Shown one piece after another: positions 42,392 to 50,031 of a stretch of DNA of 50,031 nucleotides. The stretch comes from Myxococcota bacterium (GTDB lineage: Bacteria; Myxococcota_A; UBA9160; SZUA-336). Each line of letters starts with the position of its first letter. Within the stretch, counting starts at the first letter, position 1. A model generated the notes under the pieces. That model ran no database searches and was not told where the DNA came from. It saw only the letters and a program-made list of their open reading frames with translations. The position numbers and the translations under genes are program-made. Where the stretch lies: positions 1 to 50,031 of the forward strand of contig DATKAO010000093.1 of assembly GCA_035498015.1 (NCBI GenBank), written 5' to 3'.

Positions 42392-42780
42392 GCTACCCGG
42401 GCCCAGGGCGTTTCGGGCGTCGGCTGGACGACGACCGTGAGCTGCCCCGACAGATGCGCGGTGCAGGCGAAGGGATAGCTCGACGCGAGCGCGAACGGGA
42501 GTCGGAAGCTCTGGCCGGGCATCAACAGAGTCGGGCCGAAGGTCTGCGGCACGTCGTCCAGGTTTCGCAGCACCAACACGTCCTGGAGCCCGAGCGTGAG
42601 GTAGAGCGTGTCGGGCAGGATCTCGACCGGGTCACCGGCCATGCGCCGCGCCCAGGTGCCCTTCGGGATCTCGAACACCTGCTCGCGCGAGCCGACGCGC
42701 ACGGGAGTCAGTGCCACGGCGCCCAGGCCGGCCAGCGCGCCGACCGCGAGCGCCGCCGCGATGCGCGCGCGCCGGGTCAC
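42328..42780 (-). CDS. Membrane-anchored cupredoxin-like protein
   Basis: A 150-residue protein with an N-terminal hydrophobic anchor or signal (about 5-25) and a cupredoxin-like domain. FACTAHLSGQ keeps a Cys and His (C106, H109) that could bind copper, while the upstream ligand His expected before GPTLLMPG is missing (VPQTFGP). It may bind copper in a non-standard way or not at all. It starts with GTG overlapping the SCO1 stop (GTGA) and runs 64 bases into the permease gene, so it belongs firmly in this operon. The context with SCO1 supports a copper role. Confidence 0.78.
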   Translation of the reverse strand: MTRRARIAAALAVGALAGLGAVALTPVRVGSREQVFEIPKGTWARRMAGDPVEILPDTLYLTLGLQDVLVLRNLDDVPQTFGPTLLMPGQSFRLPFALASSYPFACTAHLSGQLTVVVQPTPETPWARVAWRFRGWSRALWAGGSKLFRR

Positions 42781-43376
42781 GGGCCGAGCAGGATCGCGAC
42801 GTCGTGCGCGTAGTCCTCGGCGGAGTGACCGTAGGGCATGAGCGCGCGCAGGCTGCCGCTCCGGTCGATCAGATAGGTGAACGACGAGTGCGAGTAGCCG
42901 TAGCTCTGGCCCGAGCCGCGTCTCTCGGCGCTGACTCCGTAGTCCTTGCGCACCGCGGCCAGCCGCTCCTCGCTGCCCGTTCCGCCCAGGAAGGTCGCGT
43001 CGAAGCCCGCGAGATACTGCTTCATGCGCGCGGGGTCGTCGCGCGCGGGGTCCACGGTCACGTACACGACCTGCACCTGTGCCGCGCGCGCGCCCAGCTT
43101 CTTGCGCGCCTCGGCCAGGGTCGCGAGCGTGGTCGGACACACTTCCGGGCACGAGGTGAAGCCGAAGGCGAGCAGCACGACCTTGCCCGCGAAGCGACTC
43201 AGCCGCAGCTCGGCGCCGTTCGAGCCCGACAGCGCGAAGTCGGGTGCGGGGCGCGGCGGATCGAAGGACCCCGCGCGCAGCTCGGCTGTGTCCGCCGCGG
43301 CCGTGACGGCCGCGAGCGCGAGCGCCCAGGCGCAGGCGCTAGAGCGGAATCGCCGCCGGCTGCGCGTTGCGGGCAA
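42777..43376 (-). CDS. SCO1/SenC-family copper chaperone
   Basis: A 199-residue exported thioredoxin-fold protein. A signal or anchor segment (about 10-28) precedes the domain, with the copper-binding CPEVC motif (C76, C80) and the third ligand H164 (YSHSSF). SCO proteins load copper into the CuA site of cytochrome oxidase or act as thiol reductases. No cytochrome oxidase gene is in view; instead it sits between an ABC binding protein (38-base overlap) and a cupredoxin-like gene. This odd setting suggests copper delivery to that protein. Confidence 0.94.
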   Translation of the reverse strand: MPATRSRRRFRSSACAWALALAAVTAAADTAELRAGSFDPPRPAPDFALSGSNGAELRLSRFAGKVVLLAFGFTSCPEVCPTTLATLAEARKKLGARAAQVQVVYVTVDPARDDPARMKQYLAGFDATFLGGTGSEERLAAVRKDYGVSAERRGSGQSYGYSHSSFTYLIDRSGSLRALMPYGHSAEDYAHDVAILLGP

Positions 43377-44352
43377 AGCTCTCGTCCATGTATTTGTCGT
43401 ACGGGATCTCGTGCTGGATCGTGCCGGCCTGCAGCGAGAGCCGCATCAGGTCCTCGAACTCGCTGCGGATCATGCGCAGGTCGCCGTAAGTCACGCGGTC
43501 GCTCGGGTTCTCCATCACGTACTTCAGGATCTTCGGATCCTGGTTGAAGTAGTCCTGGCCGGCCGCGATCGCCACCGCCTTGTCGCGGTTCCCGGGCGCG
43601 GCATCGAGCCACATGCCCGCGCCCAGCACCTGGTTCACGAGGTCCTGCACGAGCGGCGCCTCGTCGCGGATCAGCTCCTCGCGCACGGTGAGCACGCAGC
43701 AGATGTACTTGGGCCACTCGTCGCGCGTCATGCGCAGCGGCCGGGCCCAGCCCGCGCTCTGCGCGGCGGCGCCGAACGGCTCACCGGTGCAATAGGCATC
43801 GACCGCATTGGCGTAGAGCGCGGCCGGCATGTCGGGCGGCGGCATCTCGACGATCTCGATCTCGCCGACCGACATGTTCTCGCGCGCGAGCATCTTGCGC
43901 AGGAACAGGAAGTCCACGGCGAAGCGGCTGGGAATGGCGATGCGCTTGCCCGTGAGCTGCTTGAACTGCTGCACCGGTGACTCGCTGCGCACCATGATCA
44001 CGGCGCCAGAACGGTGCCCGAGCGAGACGATCTTCACCGGGATGCTGCGGTCGGCCAGATCCATGACCAGGGGCGCGAGCATGTAGGCGGCCGAGATCCG
44101 GCCGGCCATGAGTGACTCCTTGATCTCGGGCCAGCCGCCGTATTTGCTGTACTCGAAGCGGCGACCGCCCGGACCGGAGCTCGCGGCTCTCGCGGCGCAC
44201 GCGACCGGCAGCGTGAGGTTGCAGGTCACCGGCAGGCCGCCGACGACCAGCGTGTTTGCGTCCGTCCCGCCCCGGGAGCAGGAGAGACTCGCCAGGGGCG
44301 ACGCCGCAGCGAGCGCGAGCGCGCCCTTCACGAAATCTCTGCGGGTCAGCAT
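43339..44352 (-). CDS. Tat-exported ABC substrate-binding protein (NrtA/TauA-like)
   Basis: A 337-residue periplasmic binding protein. The N-terminus has a Tat signal (LTRRDFVKG, Arg4-Arg5) with a hydrophobic stretch to about 25, which implies export after folding, as for cofactor-bearing proteins. The body resembles the nitrate/bicarbonate/taurine binding family (GGLPVTCNLTLPVACAA, EYSKYGGWPEIKESLMAGRISAAYMLAPL). It is the first gene of the operon and supplies the permease and ATPase. The ATG at 44352 is chosen because it puts the twin Arg at the usual position; an upstream ATG would add 13 residues. The ligand is unknown. Confidence 0.9.
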   Translation of the reverse strand: MLTRRDFVKGALALAAASPLASLSCSRGGTDANTLVVGGLPVTCNLTLPVACAARAASSGPGGRRFEYSKYGGWPEIKESLMAGRISAAYMLAPLVMDLADRSIPVKIVSLGHRSGAVIMVRSESPVQQFKQLTGKRIAIPSRFAVDFLFLRKMLARENMSVGEIEIVEMPPPDMPAALYANAVDAYCTGEPFGAAAQSAGWARPLRMTRDEWPKYICCVLTVREELIRDEAPLVQDLVNQVLGAGMWLDAAPGNRDKAVAIAAGQDYFNQDPKILKYVMENPSDRVTYGDLRMIRSEFEDLMRLSLQAGTIQHEIPYDKYMDESFARNAQPAAIPL

Positions 44353-44489
44353 CCGGGGCGGATTCTGCCGGTGCTGCGCGGGAGTGCGCAACCGAGACGC
44401 AACTCCGGGTAAACCGGCCCCGGGCCTGGGGAGTCCAAACGGACGTGGAAATTGCGGTCGCGCGCGCGAAGGCGGACGTTCCCTCTCTC
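44353..44489. promoter_or_regulatory. Divergent spacer between the ABC/halogenase operon and the ECF sigma operon
   Basis: This 137-base region carries the promoter-like site P1 for the sigma gene (44408-44440). CCGG-GTAAA-CCGG (44405-44417) is also an inverted repeat covering the -35 part. I see no clear promoter for the leftward operon; it may use an element I cannot recognise. Confidence 0.5.
44408..44440 (+). promoter_or_regulatory. Probable ECF-sigma promoter P1 before the sigma gene
   Basis: GGTAAACCG (44408-44416), 16 bases, GTCCAAAC (44433-44440). The same two elements at identical spacing recur before the Spy-like gene (P2). Transcription would begin near 44447, which rules out the GTG at 44445 as the sigma start and supports the ATG at 44490. 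Confidence 0.65.
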
Positions 44490-45029
44490 ATGGATGCGGA
44501 GGAGTTCGCGCGCTTCGCGGAGGCGCGGCGCGGGCGCGCGCTGCGGCTCGCGTTCCGCCTGCTCGGCGGCGACCAGGCCACGGCCGAGGACGTGGTGCAG
44601 AACGCCTTCTTCCGGGCCTATCGCGGGCTCGGCGCCTTCCGCGGCGAGGCCAGCCTCGACACCTGGTTCTACCGGATCCTGGTGCGCGAGGTGCAGCGCC
44701 AGCGGCGCTGGCAGGGCGTGCGCCGGCTGTTCTGGGCCGACCCCGAGGCCGCGCCCCCGGCGGTCGACCCGAGCCCGCGCCGCGACCCGGGCCTGCGGCG
44801 GCGCATCGCGGCGGCACTCGAGCGCCTGTCCGCCGGCCAGCGGGAGGCGTTCGTGCTGGTGCACCTGGAGGAGCTCACGGTGGCCGAGGCGGCCGAAGTG
44901 CTGGGCAAGGCGGTCGGGACGGTCAAGAGTCACCTGCACCGCGCGCTGGGCGCTCTGCGCGAGGACCTCTCGGACCTGCGCGGACCTACACCAAACGGTG
45001 ACACGGCGAAAGAGGAATACGAGTCATGA
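44490..45029 (+). CDS. ECF-type RNA polymerase sigma factor
   Basis: A 179-residue extracytoplasmic-function sigma factor. Region 2 (about 15-75: ALRLAFRLLGGDQATAEDVVQNAFFRAYR, DTWFYRILVREVQRQRR) and region 4 (about 112-165: ERLSAGQREAFVLVHLEELTVAEAAEVLG, TVKSHLHRALGALRE) are both clear. An in-frame GTG at 44445 would add 15 residues, but it lies at the predicted transcription start of P1. Its stop overlaps the next start (ATGA), tying it to the probable anti-sigma factor. Matching promoter-like sites before it and before the Spy-like gene imply that it drives its own operon. Confidence 0.93.
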   Translation: MDAEEFARFAEARRGRALRLAFRLLGGDQATAEDVVQNAFFRAYRGLGAFRGEASLDTWFYRILVREVQRQRRWQGVRRLFWADPEAAPPAVDPSPRRDPGLRRRIAAALERLSAGQREAFVLVHLEELTVAEAAEVLGKAVGTVKSHLHRALGALREDLSDLRGPTPNGDTAKEEYES

Positions 45030-45385
45030 GCGAAGATCGCCGCTGGATCGAGACACTTCGCGAGCAGTTCCAGCCCGAGCCCGTGCCCGAGGCGCGGGCC
45101 GCCGAGCAGCGCCGCGCGCTGCGCCAGGGCCTGACCCGGCCGGCGCGCGGGCCGCGCATCGCCTGGCCCGCGCTCGCGGCGGCCATGGCGGCGGCGGCGC
45201 TGTATCTCGCCCTGCCGCGCGCGACCCCGACGACGCCAGGCGACGCCGGCGCCAGCCTCGCCGAGAGCGACGCGCTGGTCGACCCCGACGCCTACGCCAG
45301 CGAGCTCGCGGGCGACCCCGGCTATCTGCCGGCGGACTACCAGGGTCTCGCGCTTCTCCTCGACGACGACGCTGCCGATCGGTAA
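45026..45385 (+). CDS. Small single-pass membrane protein, probable anti-sigma factor
   Basis: A 119-residue protein: about 45 charged cytoplasmic residues, one membrane helix (about 47-64), then an acidic outside tail. This layout matches short anti-sigma factors such as CnrY or RseA types; there is no zinc-binding HxxxCxxC motif. It is translated directly after the ECF sigma factor through an ATGA overlap. The assignment rests on position and topology, not on sequence similarity that I recognise. Its end overlaps the -35-like part of P2. Confidence 0.7.
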   Translation: MSEDRRWIETLREQFQPEPVPEARAAEQRRALRQGLTRPARGPRIAWPALAAAMAAAALYLALPRATPTTPGDAGASLAESDALVDPDAYASELAGDPGYLPADYQGLALLLDDDAADR

Positions 45386-45413
45386 ACCGCGGACAGGCGC
45401 GGCGGGTCGAAAC
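45381..45413 (+). promoter_or_regulatory. Probable ECF-sigma promoter P2 before the Spy-like and efflux genes
   Basis: GGTAAACCG (45381-45389), 16 bases, GTCGAAAC (45406-45413): the same pair and spacing as P1. Transcription would begin near 45420, just before AAGGAGG (45423-45429) and the ATG at 45438, giving a leader of about 18 bases. Confidence 0.65.
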
Positions 45414-45437: not shown

Positions 45438-45980
45438 ATGCGACCGTTCAAGAGTCTCTCCCTCGCCGCGCTTTTGTGCGCGCTGTTCGTGTCACCGGTT
45501 CGTGCAGACCCCAACGCCCCGACGGGCGGACCCGGCGGTCCCGGCGGACCGGGGATGGAAGGGCGGCTCGAGAAGCAGCTCGGCAAGCTCGGCCTCTCCG
45601 ACTCACAGAACCAGAAGGTGCAGGCGATCCTCACTGCCGCCAAGCCGCAGCGCGACGCGATGCGCGGCCAGATGCGCCAGGCGTTCCAGGACATGCGCAG
45701 CTTGCTCGACCAGGACGCTCCGGACCAGAACGCGGTCATGGCGCAGGCCGACCGCATCGGTCAGCTCCAGACCCAGGCCCACAAGGACATGCTGACCACG
45801 CTTCTCGCAGTGCGCGCCGAGCTCTCCCCCGCTCAGCGCGCACAGCTCCGTGAGTCGATGCACGAGCACATGCAGGGCCGCTGGCACCGCTGGCACCACG
45901 GTTACAACCGCGGTGGTCAGGGAGCTCCGCCCAGCGGCGGCGCGCCCGCCCCAACCCCAGAGACGTCTCCGGAGGACTGA
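45438..45980 (+). CDS. Spy/CpxP-like periplasmic protein with His-rich tail
   Basis: A 180-residue exported, helical protein. The signal peptide ends near VRADP (about 24); a Gly/Pro-rich stretch follows, then two LTxxQ-like helices (GLSDSQNQKV at about 52 and ELSPAQRAQL at about 128), the mark of the Spy/CpxP/CnrX fold. The C-terminal part has a His cluster (HEHMQGRWHRWHH, about 142-154), a likely metal site. It may sense metal or misfolded protein and control the anti-sigma factor, as CnrX does. AAGGAGG nine bases upstream is a strong ribosome site. Confidence 0.85.
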   Translation: MRPFKSLSLAALLCALFVSPVRADPNAPTGGPGGPGGPGMEGRLEKQLGKLGLSDSQNQKVQAILTAAKPQRDAMRGQMRQAFQDMRSLLDQDAPDQNAVMAQADRIGQLQTQAHKDMLTTLLAVRAELSPAQRAQLRESMHEHMQGRWHRWHHGYNRGGQGAPPSGGAPAPTPETSPED

Positions 45981-45983
45981 TCT

Positions 45984-47396
45984 CTGAGACGTCACTCCCT
46001 CGCGTATCTGCTCACGGCCGGCCTCACCGCTTGCGCGGTGGGGCCGGACTACGTGCGCCCCGAGTCCGCCGCACCGGATGCGTGGCGCACGCCGCTGGCC
46101 GGCGGCCTCGCGGCGCTGCCGCCCGACCAGGCGGCGCTCGCGCGTTTCTGGACGACGCTCGGCGATCCGATGCTCGACCAGCTCGTCGAGCAGGCGCTCG
46201 TCCACAACTACGACGTCGCGCAGGCCGAGGCCCGGCTGCGCCAGACACGCGCGCTACGCGACTTCGCGATCGGCGCATTCTTCCCGCACATCACCGGTAA
46301 CGCCGGCGGCCAGCACAGCCAGGCCACCGGACGCCAGACGAGCAACAGCATCTCCGTGACCAACTACTTCGCCACCCTCGACGCCAGCTGGGAGATCGAC
46401 GTCTTCGGCCGGCTGCGCCGCGGGCTCGAGGCCGCCAACGCCGACCGCGACGCCGCCGTGGAGAACCTGCGCGACGTGCAGGTCTCCCTGGTCGCCGAGC
46501 TCGCGCTCACCTACGTCGACGCGCGCGCGCTGCAGGAGCGGCTGCGCATTGCCGAGGCCACGCGCGCCTCGCAGTCCGAGACGTTCGACCTCACCGACTG
46601 GCGCGCGCAGGCGGGACTCACCACCGAGCTCGACGTGGAGCGCGCGCGCTCGGCGCTCGCGACCACGGAAGCCGTGATCCCCACGCTCGAGACCGCGCTC
46701 GCCGCCGACATGAACGGCATCGCCATCCTGGTCGGCGCGCCGCCCGGTGACCTCACCGCGCTGCTCGCGCCGCCCGAGCCCATTCCCGTGACTCCCCTCG
46801 AGGTCGCCGTCGGTGTCCCCGCGGAAACGCTCGCGCAGCGTCCCGACGTACGCCGCGCCGAGCGCGACCTCGCGGCGGAGACCGCTCGGGTAGGCGTCGT
46901 CACCGCCGACGCCTACCCGAGCCTGAATGCCCTGGGCTCGATCGGGCTCGAAGCATTGTCCCCGCCCGGCCTGCTCGAGGCCGGCGCCAAGACGGCGACG
47001 CTCGCGGTGAGCGCGTCGCAGACCCTCTTCAAGGGCGGGCAGGTGATCGCCACGATCCAAGCGCAGGAGGCCGTGCGCGACGAGGTCCTGGCCTCGTACC
47101 AGGCCACCGTGCTTTCCGCCCTGAACGAGGTGGAGAATGCGCTGGTGGCCTACGCGCAGGAGCAGGACCGCCGCAAGGCGCTGGCCGAGGGCACGGCCGC
47201 GGCCGAACGGGCGCTCGTGCTGGCGCAGGACCAGTACGGCTCGGGGCTGATCGACTTCCAGGTCGTGCTCGACGCGCAGCGCTCGCTGTTCCTGCTGCAG
47301 GACCAGCTCGCCGCGAGCGAGGGTCAGGTCACGTCGAACCTGGTGCGCCTGTTCAAAGCGCTGGGGGGCGGATGGACACCGGGAACGACTTCGTGA
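45984..47396 (+). CDS. Outer-membrane efflux lipoprotein (NodT/TolC family), apparent CTG start
   Basis: A 470-residue outer-membrane channel of the NodT group, which joins an inner-membrane pump to the outside. Two outer-membrane-efflux domains occupy most of the length. A shorter reading from GTG at 46038 begins at VGPDYVRP and loses the export signal. In-frame codons upstream, starting at CTG 45984, encode a good lipoprotein signal (RRHSLAYLLTAGLTAC, then AVGPDY). GGAGGA at 45971-45976 lies seven bases before that CTG, and no ATG, GTG or TTG is available in between. CTG initiation is therefore the best reading. It overlaps the membrane-fusion gene by 25 bases. Confidence 0.88.
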   Translation: MRRHSLAYLLTAGLTACAVGPDYVRPESAAPDAWRTPLAGGLAALPPDQAALARFWTTLGDPMLDQLVEQALVHNYDVAQAEARLRQTRALRDFAIGAFFPHITGNAGGQHSQATGRQTSNSISVTNYFATLDASWEIDVFGRLRRGLEAANADRDAAVENLRDVQVSLVAELALTYVDARALQERLRIAEATRASQSETFDLTDWRAQAGLTTELDVERARSALATTEAVIPTLETALAADMNGIAILVGAPPGDLTALLAPPEPIPVTPLEVAVGVPAETLAQRPDVRRAERDLAAETARVGVVTADAYPSLNALGSIGLEALSPPGLLEAGAKTATLAVSASQTLFKGGQVIATIQAQEAVRDEVLASYQATVLSALNEVENALVAYAQEQDRRKALAEGTAAAERALVLAQDQYGSGLIDFQVVLDAQRSLFLLQDQLAASEGQVTSNLVRLFKALGGGWTPGTTS

Positions 47397-48673
47397 ACGA
47401 GCTCCGGGAGACCCCGGCGAGCTCGGAGATCGAGCGCACGCTCGGCCTGCGCGAGTCACTCGCCGCGCGCATGAAGAATCGCTGGCTCGGCTACGGCGGG
47501 CTGGCGGCGCTCGTCCTCCTGGCGCTGCTCGTGCTCGCGCTGCGCGGCGGCAACGACGGCGTGCGCTTCACGACCCAGCCCGCGCGGCGCGGCGAGCTCA
47601 CGGTGACCGTGACCGCGACCGGCACGCTGCAGCCGACCAACCAGGTCGACGTGAGCAGCGTGATTTCGGGCATCGTCCTGTCCGTGTCGGCCGACTTCAA
47701 CGACACGGTGAAGGTCGGACAGGAGCTCGCGCGGCTCGAGACCACCAAGCTCGAAGCGCAGGTGCAGCTGTCGCGCGCGGCAATCGATTCCGCCGAGGCG
47801 CTGGTCAAGCAGTCCCAGGCGAACCTCGCCCAGGCCGAGAGTCAGATCGCGCGCCTGGAGCACGTGCGCGAGCTCTCGGGCGGCAAGGTGCCGTCGCAGG
47901 CCGACCTCGACACCGCCAAGGCGGCGCTGCTGTCCGCGCGCGCCAGCGTGTCGAGCAACCAGGCGGCAGTCACGCAGGCCAAGGCGACGCTCGCCAGTCA
48001 GCTCTTCGACCTGTCGAAGGCGACGATCGTCTCGCCCATCAACGGCCTGGTCCTGGTGCGCTCGGTCGAGCCGGGCCAGACGGTGGCGGCCTCCCTGCAG
48101 GCGCCCGTGCTCTTCACGCTGGCCGAGGACCTGACGCGCATGGAGCTGCACGTGAGCGTCGACGAGGCCGACGTCGGCCAAGTGAGCGAGGGCCAGGCGG
48201 CGACCTTCACCGTCGACGCGTGGCCCGACAGACACTTCAACGCCAAGGTCCAGCAGGTGCGATACGGCGCCCAGACGATCGAGGGCGTGGTGACTTACGA
48301 GACGGTGCTCGAGGTCGACAACGGCGAGAAGCTCCTGCGCCCGGGCATGACCGCGACCGCCGAGATCACCGTGAACCACCTGGCCGACGCGCTGCTCGTG
48401 CCCAACGCCGCCCTGCGCTTCCAGCCGCCCGCGCGCGAGGCCGGGGCGCAGGGAGGGCTGTTGAGCGCGCTCCTGCCCATGCGCCGCTTCGGCGGCCGCC
48501 CGAGCGAGCCGCTGAACCCCAAGCAAGCGCGCGTGTACGTGCTCGAGAACGGCCATCCCAAGGCGGTGCCGATCTCGCCCGGACCCAGCGACGGCACCTG
48601 GACCCAGGTGAAGAGCGGCGAGATCCAGCCCGAGACCGAGCTGGTCACCGACTCGGTCGCGGTGCACAAGTGA
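47372..48673 (+). CDS. Membrane-fusion (MacA/HlyD-type) efflux adaptor
   Basis: A 433-residue periplasmic adaptor anchored by one N-terminal helix (about 37-57). The biotinyl-lipoyl-like halves flank a coiled-coil hairpin (about 130-210, QVQLSRAAIDSAEALVKQSQANL and following), then a beta-barrel and membrane-proximal domain. It links the outer-membrane channel upstream to the ABC pump downstream. About 35 cytoplasmic residues precede the helix, longer than in MacA. An in-frame ATG at 47471 would drop them. The 25-base overlap with the channel gene supports the longer start. Confidence 0.93.
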   Translation: MDTGNDFVNELRETPASSEIERTLGLRESLAARMKNRWLGYGGLAALVLLALLVLALRGGNDGVRFTTQPARRGELTVTVTATGTLQPTNQVDVSSVISGIVLSVSADFNDTVKVGQELARLETTKLEAQVQLSRAAIDSAEALVKQSQANLAQAESQIARLEHVRELSGGKVPSQADLDTAKAALLSARASVSSNQAAVTQAKATLASQLFDLSKATIVSPINGLVLVRSVEPGQTVAASLQAPVLFTLAEDLTRMELHVSVDEADVGQVSEGQAATFTVDAWPDRHFNAKVQQVRYGAQTIEGVVTYETVLEVDNGEKLLRPGMTATAEITVNHLADALLVPNAALRFQPPAREAGAQGGLLSALLPMRRFGGRPSEPLNPKQARVYVLENGHPKAVPISPGPSDGTWTQVKSGEIQPETELVTDSVAVHK

Positions 48674-48680
48674 CTCCGCC

Positions 48681-49382
48681 GTGAACGAGCATCCCCCCGT
48701 CATCGAGCTGCGGCAAGTCAGCAAGATCTACGGCACCGGGCAGGCCGCGGTGGCCGCGCTGCGCGGCATCGATCTGTCGATCGAGCGCGGTGACTTCGTG
48801 GCGGTCATGGGGCCCAGCGGCTCGGGCAAGTCGACCTGCATGAACATCCTGGGCTGTCTCGATTCGCCGACCTCGGGCTCGTACCGGTTCGACGGCGTCG
48901 AGGTCGGGCGGCTCTCGCGCGACCAGCGCGCGCGGCTGCGCCGCAACTATCTCGGCTTCGTGTTCCAGGGCTTCCACCTGCTGGGCCGCAGCACCGCGCT
49001 CGAGAACGTGGAGCTGCCGCTGGTCTACCGCGGGCTCTCCGCCCAGGAGCGTCACCGGCGCGCCGGCGCGGCGCTCGAGCGCGTGGGTCTCACGGGCTGG
49101 GCGAGTCACCGGCCCAACGAGCTGTCCGGCGGCCAGCAGCAGCGCGTGGCGATCGCGCGCGCGATCGTGACCCATCCCGAGGTGCTGCTGGCCGACGAGC
49201 CGACGGGCAACCTCGACCAGAGCCGCGGGCGCGAGATCATGGAGCTGCTCACCGAGCTCAACCGCACGCAGGGGCTCACGATCGTGATCGTGACCCACGA
49301 CGAGCACCTGTCGCGCTGGAGCAACCGCGCCATCCGCTTCCTCGACGGCAGGATCGTCAAGGAAGGCGAGGAGGCCGCCTGA
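48681..49382 (+). CDS. ABC-transporter ATPase (MacB/LolD type)
   Basis: A 233-residue ATPase. Walker A GPSGSGKST (about 44-52), the Q-loop region FVFQGFHLL, signature LSGGQQQRV (about 148-156), Walker B VLLADEPTGNLD and H-loop VTHDEH are all visible. The LADEPTGNLD form is typical of MacB/LolD/FtsE-type ATPases, which drive mechanotransmission transporters rather than classic import. It starts with GTG eight bases after the adaptor gene and overlaps the permease start by one base. Confidence 0.95.
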   Translation: MNEHPPVIELRQVSKIYGTGQAAVAALRGIDLSIERGDFVAVMGPSGSGKSTCMNILGCLDSPTSGSYRFDGVEVGRLSRDQRARLRRNYLGFVFQGFHLLGRSTALENVELPLVYRGLSAQERHRRAGAALERVGLTGWASHRPNELSGGQQQRVAIARAIVTHPEVLLADEPTGNLDQSRGREIMELLTELNRTQGLTIVIVTHDEHLSRWSNRAIRFLDGRIVKEGEEAA

Positions 49383-50031
49383 TGCTGTGGTCGATGGTGC
49401 GGCTGGCGCTGCTCGCCATACGCAGAAATGTGTTGCGCTCGTCGCTCACGGTGCTGGGCATCGTGATCGGCGTGGCCGCGGTGATCACCATGACCACGAT
49501 CGGCGCGGGCGCCACGGCCAAGGTCACCGCCGACATCGCCAGCCTGGGCACCAACATGCTCATGGTGCGCCCGGGCCAGGGCTACGGGCCGGGCGGCGCC
49601 CGCGCCGACGCCCCGCCCTTCAAGATCGAGGACGCCGACGCGATCCAGCGCGAGATCTACGGCGTGGCTGCGGTCGCGCCCACCGCCCAGAAGCAGGTGC
49701 AGGCGATCTCGTCGGCCAAGAACTGGTCGACCACGGCGACGGGCGGGACCGCGTCGTTCCTGATCGTGCGCAACTGGGACCTGGCGGGCGGCCGCGCCTT
49801 CACGGAGGGCGAAGAGCGCGCCGGCAAGGCGCTGTGCATCCTGGGCGAGACGGTGCGCCGCGAGCTGTTCGGCGCGGCCGATCCCGTGGGCCAGCGCATC
49901 CGGCTGGGCAAGCTCACCTGTCAGATCATCGGCCTGCTCGCTCCCAAGGGTGAGTCGAGCTTCGGCCAGGACCAGGACGACGTGGTGCTCGTGCCGCTGC
50001 GCTGGCTGCAGCGCACGCTGGTCGGCAACAC
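49382..50031 (+). CDS. MacB/FtsX-type ABC permease, N-terminal part (runs off the window)
   Basis: The first 216 codons of a permease open to the window end. An N-terminal helix (about 20-42, LTVLGIVIGVAAVITMTTIGAGA) is followed by a large periplasmic domain, as in MacB permeases (MacB_PCD). The initiator ATG overlaps the ATPase stop (TGATG). Together with the upstream channel, adaptor and ATPase it completes a tripartite MacAB-TolC-like pump, which in other bacteria exports antibiotics, peptides, siderophores or lipoprotein-like molecules. The remaining helices lie outside the window. Confidence 0.93.
   Translation, partial: MLWSMVRLALLAIRRNVLRSSLTVLGIVIGVAAVITMTTIGAGATAKVTADIASLGTNMLMVRPGQGYGPGGARADAPPFKIEDADAIQREIYGVAAVAPTAQKQVQAISSAKNWSTTATGGTASFLIVRNWDLAGGRAFTEGEERAGKALCILGETVRRELFGAADPVGQRIRLGKLTCQIIGLLAPKGESSFGQDQDDVVLVPLRWLQRTLVGN

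Follow-up and report, generated by a model that had tools for sequence, protein, structure and literature searches.

A putative autoregulated ECF sigma factor circuit with two promoter-like sites, a small anti-sigma candidate and a Spy-like periplasmic protein in a Myxococcota bacterium

The locus carries two promoter-like sites of the same two-block form, one ahead of an ECF sigma gene and one ahead of a Spy-like gene and efflux genes. The question is whether both are promoters of the adjacent sigma factor, and what would set such a circuit in motion. Autoregulated ECF systems and CnrX-type partners are already known. The window is the whole stretch of DNA analysed, 50,031 nt in length. Its features at and near the two sites are listed in Table 1. 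A two-promoter circuit, with the adjacent ECF sigma factor acting at both sites, is judged highly likely from the sequence comparisons given below. The sensing step is much less certain.

Table 1. Positions of the two sites and of the neighbouring genes in the window.
Feature	Position	Strand	Remarks
TAT-type NMT1/SsuA-like substrate-binding protein gene and SCO1/SenC gene	43339-44391 and 42777-43376	-	Divergent, adjoining site 1
Site 1, -35 element GGTAAACCG	44408..44416	+	5' of the sigma gene; matrix score 26.1 of 27.1 (matrix built without the window's family)
Site 1, -10 element GTCCAAAC	44433..44440	+	
ECF sigma gene	44445..45029	+	Start GTG 44445 or ATG 44490; stop TGA 45027-45029; Pfam
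Small single-TM putative anti-sigma, 119 aa	45026..45385	+	ATG overlaps sigma stop (ATGA); stop TAA 45383-45385
Site 2, -35 element GGTAAACCG	45381..45389	+	Matrix score 24.5 of 27.1
Site 2, -10 element GTCGAAAC	45406..45413	+	
Spy/CpxP/CnrX-fold periplasmic protein	45438..45980	+	Signal peptide; PF13801 E 9e-19, PF07813 E 5e-9
NodT/TolC-type outer-membrane efflux lipoprotein	45984..47396	+	TIGR01845 E 4.5e-102
MacA-like periplasmic adaptor	47372..48673	+	TIGR01730, PRK11578 MacA
MacB/LolD-type ABC ATPase	48681..49382	+	
MacB-type permease	49382..50031	+	PF12704; cut by window end

Both sites of the preliminary description (44408-44440 and 45381-45413, equally spaced) are present, with 16 nt between the blocks of each. 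Their spacers are unlike and no longer repeat surrounds them, in agreement with its view that the pair is no simple duplication. No third copy of GGTAAACCG-N16-GTCnAAAC was found in the window at up to 3 mismatches (0.05 in shuffles). In the whole genome (4.52 Mb draft, 257 contigs) the pattern GGTAAACC-N17-GTCnAAAC has two matches only at one mismatch or fewer; with the reversed control pattern no match was obtained. Equally good matches in large numbers, scattered at random over the genome, had been named as the outcome that would speak against the reading; they were looked for and are absent. At 2 mismatches one extra match appears (C232:6187), at the 3' end of an SDR-type reductase reading frame and with GCC in place of GTC; it looks like a chance match. 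Chance or duplication as the origin of the two sites was rejected from motif scans of window and genome and from comparison of the flanks. A wider regulon in the same genome was rejected as well, the sole further place (at 2 mismatches) lying within a reading frame and having a broken -10 element. Ordinary sigma-70 promoters were not found in a scan of the region. Site 1 sits in a divergent intergenic region, its neighbours on the minus strand. Site 2 and the 3' end of the anti-sigma gene overlap: the TAA stop is inside the -35 element, as part of GGTAAACC. A stop codon within the -35 element occurs also in L072 and L077 (offset -4).

Of 91 genomes searched in the class, 33 have a sigma ortholog, and more orthologs come from other genomes of the phylum and from contigs named Deltaproteobacteria and Myxococcales. 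A plasmid collection searched with the sigma protein gave no matches. Other families of the class and phylum also have the motif 5' of their sigma orthologs, the proteins being 51-65% identical. Within 200 nt before 34 out-of-family sigma genes, the best match departs from the window consensus at a mean of 3.9 of 15 positions; for dinucleotide shuffles the mean is 6.2. A matrix made from 18 out-of-family sigma-upstream sites of class and phylum, [CGT]GTAA[AC]CCG-N16-GTC[CGT]AA, scores highest on the window at the two sites (Table 1); the next best place reaches 14.2. A strict pattern applied class-wide matches at 36 places in 91 genomes, about 19 of them adjoining a sigma ortholog, against 7 places for the reversed pattern. 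G010 (97% complete), the one further genome available for the genus, has neither a close sigma ortholog nor the sites.

Three layouts recur among the related loci: a single site, before sigma; two sites, one before sigma and one following the anti-sigma gene (the layout of the window); and a site ahead of an upstream Spy-like gene, to which some loci add one before sigma. Spy-first operons with the site before the first Spy gene are those of L060, L061, L066, L067, L071, L075, L085, L086 and L087. A site after the anti-sigma gene is present in 8 of 16 loci with an anti-sigma-to-Spy gap of at least 45 nt and in 0 of 18 with a shorter gap (Fisher p = 0.0007), a test that uses automatically chosen Spy starts (those of L072, L088 and L090 look wrong) and loci that share descent, so that the counts are not independent events. 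Second sites of variant form add L069, L070, L079 and L089. No site above threshold was detected within the 2.8 kb examined of L073, and none near the sigma or anti-sigma gene of L080. The conserved module consists of the ECF sigma factor, the small single-TM anti-sigma candidate (34 of 40 loci in an automatic search) and the Spy-like protein (40 of 40 loci). In some loci Spy-like genes flank the sigma gene on either side, and some Spy-like genes are preceded by a promoter of their own.

The autoregulated reading of the preliminary description thus finds support in phylogenetic footprinting: the motif stands before sigma orthologs and before Spy-like genes that are not simply read through. A conserved two-block promoter-like site ahead of its own gene is what marks the sigma factor as putatively autoregulated. 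A competing explanation, that the sites bind another regulator or are chance matches rather than ECF promoters, is very improbable. The promoter reading of the two sites rests on sequence and short repeats are possible in GC-rich genomes, but the two-block form, near-fixed spacing, GTC -10 core, genome-wide uniqueness, conservation before sigma orthologs and absence where sigma is absent all argue for ECF promoters. A GTC -10 core is typical of these. Dozens of related genomes have the same sites in equivalent positions, so the sigma factor very probably activates its own gene as well as the Spy/pump output, with initiation by the adjacent sigma expected at both sites. Positive autoregulation would work through site 1, which would serve the sigma gene together with the anti-sigma gene. 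Site 2 would serve the Spy-like protein and, following it in the same orientation, the outer-membrane factor, adaptor and MacB-type exporter.

The sigma protein has the domains Sigma70_r2 (residues 12-73) and Sigma70_r4_2 (104-156), with no other kind of domain above the Pfam cut-off. Site 1 had been thought to settle its start at ATG 44490. It does not: an in-frame GTG (44445) lies 5 nt past the site. In nearly all orthologs, in-frame starts exist further upstream than the equivalent of Met 44490, usually by 10-20 residues. GTG 44445 appears the better start candidate, because the N-termini of the orthologs fit it better. Transcription would start about 5-8 nt 3' of the -10 element of site 1. 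In several orthologs the first in-frame sigma start is just 3-9 nt after the site; start candidates 3-9 nt past the -10 element were noted in L060, L062, L070, L081, L092 and L095-L097, and at 44445 in the window. This spacing suggests sigma messages that are leaderless or have a very short leader in these loci and in the window.

The 119 aa protein has a TM segment at about residues 47-62, preceded by a cytosolic part of about 46 aa. Its conserved C-terminal tail is YLPADYQGLALLL. The family consensus of the tail is LP[DE]DYxAIASLFLDG, at or near the C-terminus in most members; P102 and Y105 are invariant (A1, 29 members). The distant loci L010-L012 have a similar protein with the tail GEEYDGIADIYFDD. 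The predicted structure (pTM 0.33, low) has cytosolic helices at 2-14 and 22-37, a membrane helix and a C-terminal helix over the tail. No Pfam family matched the protein, and no solved structure matched it credibly by sequence. NCBIfam matches are weak: CU044_5270 in 12 members, an anti-sigma model in 3. Position, overlap with the sigma gene, topology and these weak matches point to an anti-sigma factor. The class I anti-sigma domain has a cytosolic average of 101 aa, and lengths below 50 aa are excluded from it (PMC7406223). The part before the TM helix here is shorter than that limit.

The Spy-like gene has the Shine-Dalgarno sequence AAGGAGGT about 8 nt upstream. The modelled protein (mean pLDDT 82) has its best fold matches in CpxP, Spy, ZraP and CnrX (Foldseek E 0.006-0.2, probability 1.0). 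PF13801 (Metal_resist) matches 31 of 31 aligned members and PF07813 (LTXXQ) 26 of 31. Both the profile and the hairpin helical fold are those of the Spy/CpxP/ZraP/CnrX family. The efflux lipoprotein probably starts at CTG 45984, coupled to the Spy stop and with GGAGG ahead, since no ATG, GTG or TTG precedes the lipobox. Spy-like gene and pump would share one transcript. MacA and MacB models fit the adaptor and the ABC subunits, a likeness to MacAB-TolC; unlike it, ATPase and permease are on separate genes here, and the set is in the regulon of only two genomes seen. A related efflux set was found in 1 of 20 extended ortholog loci, which with the window gives 2 of 21 genomes examined. That locus is in G022 (L066/L127), where a divergent set of adaptor, ATPase and permease has its own site at 730(-). 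The Spy-like protein is therefore taken as the constant output and the pump as an occasional addition, the former being present in 40 of 40 loci and the efflux set in 1 of 20.

The known system nearest in layout is CnrYXH (Cupriavidus metallidurans pMOL28), with NccYXH. It likewise comprises an ECF sigma factor, a short single-TM anti-sigma factor and a periplasmic protein of Spy/CnrX fold. CnrH-dependent promoters precede cnrYXH and cnrCBA, so that the regulators and the efflux genes have one each (PMC9045368). The gene order differs, being cnrY-X-H there and sigma-anti-Spy here, and the window motif is not apparent before cnrY or cnrC. Window and cnr sigma factors share 31% identity over 151 aa. 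The Spy-like protein resembles CnrX in fold (TM ~0.7-0.79 by target length, though Foldseek E > 0.05) and in profile alignment (hhalign E 7.8e-5, probability 62%).

This likeness raises the possibility of metal sensing of the CnrYXH type, in which the Spy-like protein would act as a metal sensor on the anti-sigma factor and the pump would export metal. The shared two-promoter layout (PMC9045368), the Metal_resist matches of all 31 aligned members, CnrX among the fold matches, and a minimal anti-sigma candidate that has two predicted cytosolic helices and is like class II CnrY in topology are consistent with it. In class II (CnrY-like) anti-sigma factors two helices wrap around sigma-2 and sigma-4. 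The Spy-like protein of the window also has a His-rich C-terminal tail, but this tail is not conserved. The metal ligands of CnrX are H42, H46, E63, H119 and M123. In the profile alignment H119 and M123 fall opposite T121 and V125, positions that do not hold metal ligands in the family; the alignment begins at CnrX residue 47, with H42 and H46 outside it. No conserved His, Cys or Met is present in the Spy domain alignment. Between the anti-sigma family and CnrY similarity is not detectable (BLASTP gave no alignment, hhalign a probability of 0.1%), and the pump belongs to the MacB type instead of RND and is absent from most relatives. With no conserved metal ligands seen in the Spy domain, and no kinship with CnrY detected, a CnrX-like metal sensor is the less likely; metal sensing as a whole is considered unlikely.

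A different division of labour is offered by proteolysis: the Spy-like protein would be no more than an output chaperone, and a periplasmic site-1 protease would read the anti-sigma tail, on the pattern of RseA/DegS. Co-transcription of sigma and anti-sigma from a two-block sigma-dependent promoter, predicted here, is as in systems of the RpoE-RseA type. Other -35/-10 elements, the short cytosolic anti-sigma part and the Spy-like partner set the window apart from these, as does the lack of an RseA-type family match for the anti-sigma candidate. In most members the conserved element lies at the very C-terminus or near it, which fits a terminal recognition tag, and Spy-like genes sometimes have their own promoters, with copies flanking the sigma gene. 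Against it, the constant linkage to a Spy-like gene (all 40 loci) suggests more than an ordinary target, and no protease gene was noticed in the module. Signalling by proteolysis is a reasonable possibility, short of probable.

CpxP and Spy, from the CpxP-CpxA and Spy envelope stress systems of Escherichia coli, share with the Spy-like protein the periplasmic fold (best matches), the LTPEQR motif and a plausible chaperone and feedback role. Their genes are under two-component systems, whereas here an ECF sigma factor would be in control. For the circuit as proposed, the membrane anti-sigma factor would at rest hold the sigma factor through its ~46 N-terminal cytosolic residues. Envelope stress would most likely be sensed in the periplasm, by the C-terminal tail of the anti-sigma factor together with the Spy-like partner. 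The sigma factor, once released, would amplify itself and make the Spy-like protein and the pump. What the signal is and what the tail does are inferred; reading of the tail may fall to the Spy-like partner (CpxP-like titration) or to a protease. An undescribed envelope-stress module, in which a Spy-like chaperone binds the anti-sigma tail and unfolded periplasmic proteins titrate the chaperone so that sigma is freed, is put forward tentatively, as a possibility that is less likely than not. Such a chaperone-titration module would be the sigma-factor counterpart of CpxP/CpxA.

Neither the motif nor the ECF-Spy-MacB combination was found in the open literature searched, which left out the main (2021) ECF classification. 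The design of the circuit is ordinary and its set of partners apparently undescribed. The results provide a sharp and transferable promoter consensus, BGTAAMCC-N17-GTC, for an ECF system in about one-third of 91 class genomes, and a small regulon that lends itself to tests in another host. They also define a conserved anti-sigma family that Pfam does not cover; its C-terminal tail points to a possible way of reading the signal. The circuit would moreover connect a chaperone of the Spy type with an ECF switch in which no metal site is evident.

Strict motif matches occur also in G009 (C4:92248, C24:6430 and C63:31415), a member of the family without a close sigma ortholog; they may belong to a divergent paralog. 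A divergent motif copy (score 22.0) is located upstream of the sigma site at L078 1280 and L009 4777 (minus strand), and the gene that it faces may belong to the regulon. A Cys-containing C-terminal extension, like the Cys_rich_FGFR (PF00839) repeat, occurs in downstream Spy-like proteins of L066 (2443-3072), L069, L070, L076, L077, L079, L081, L083, L084 and L091; 2 of 31 aligned members pass the Pfam search.
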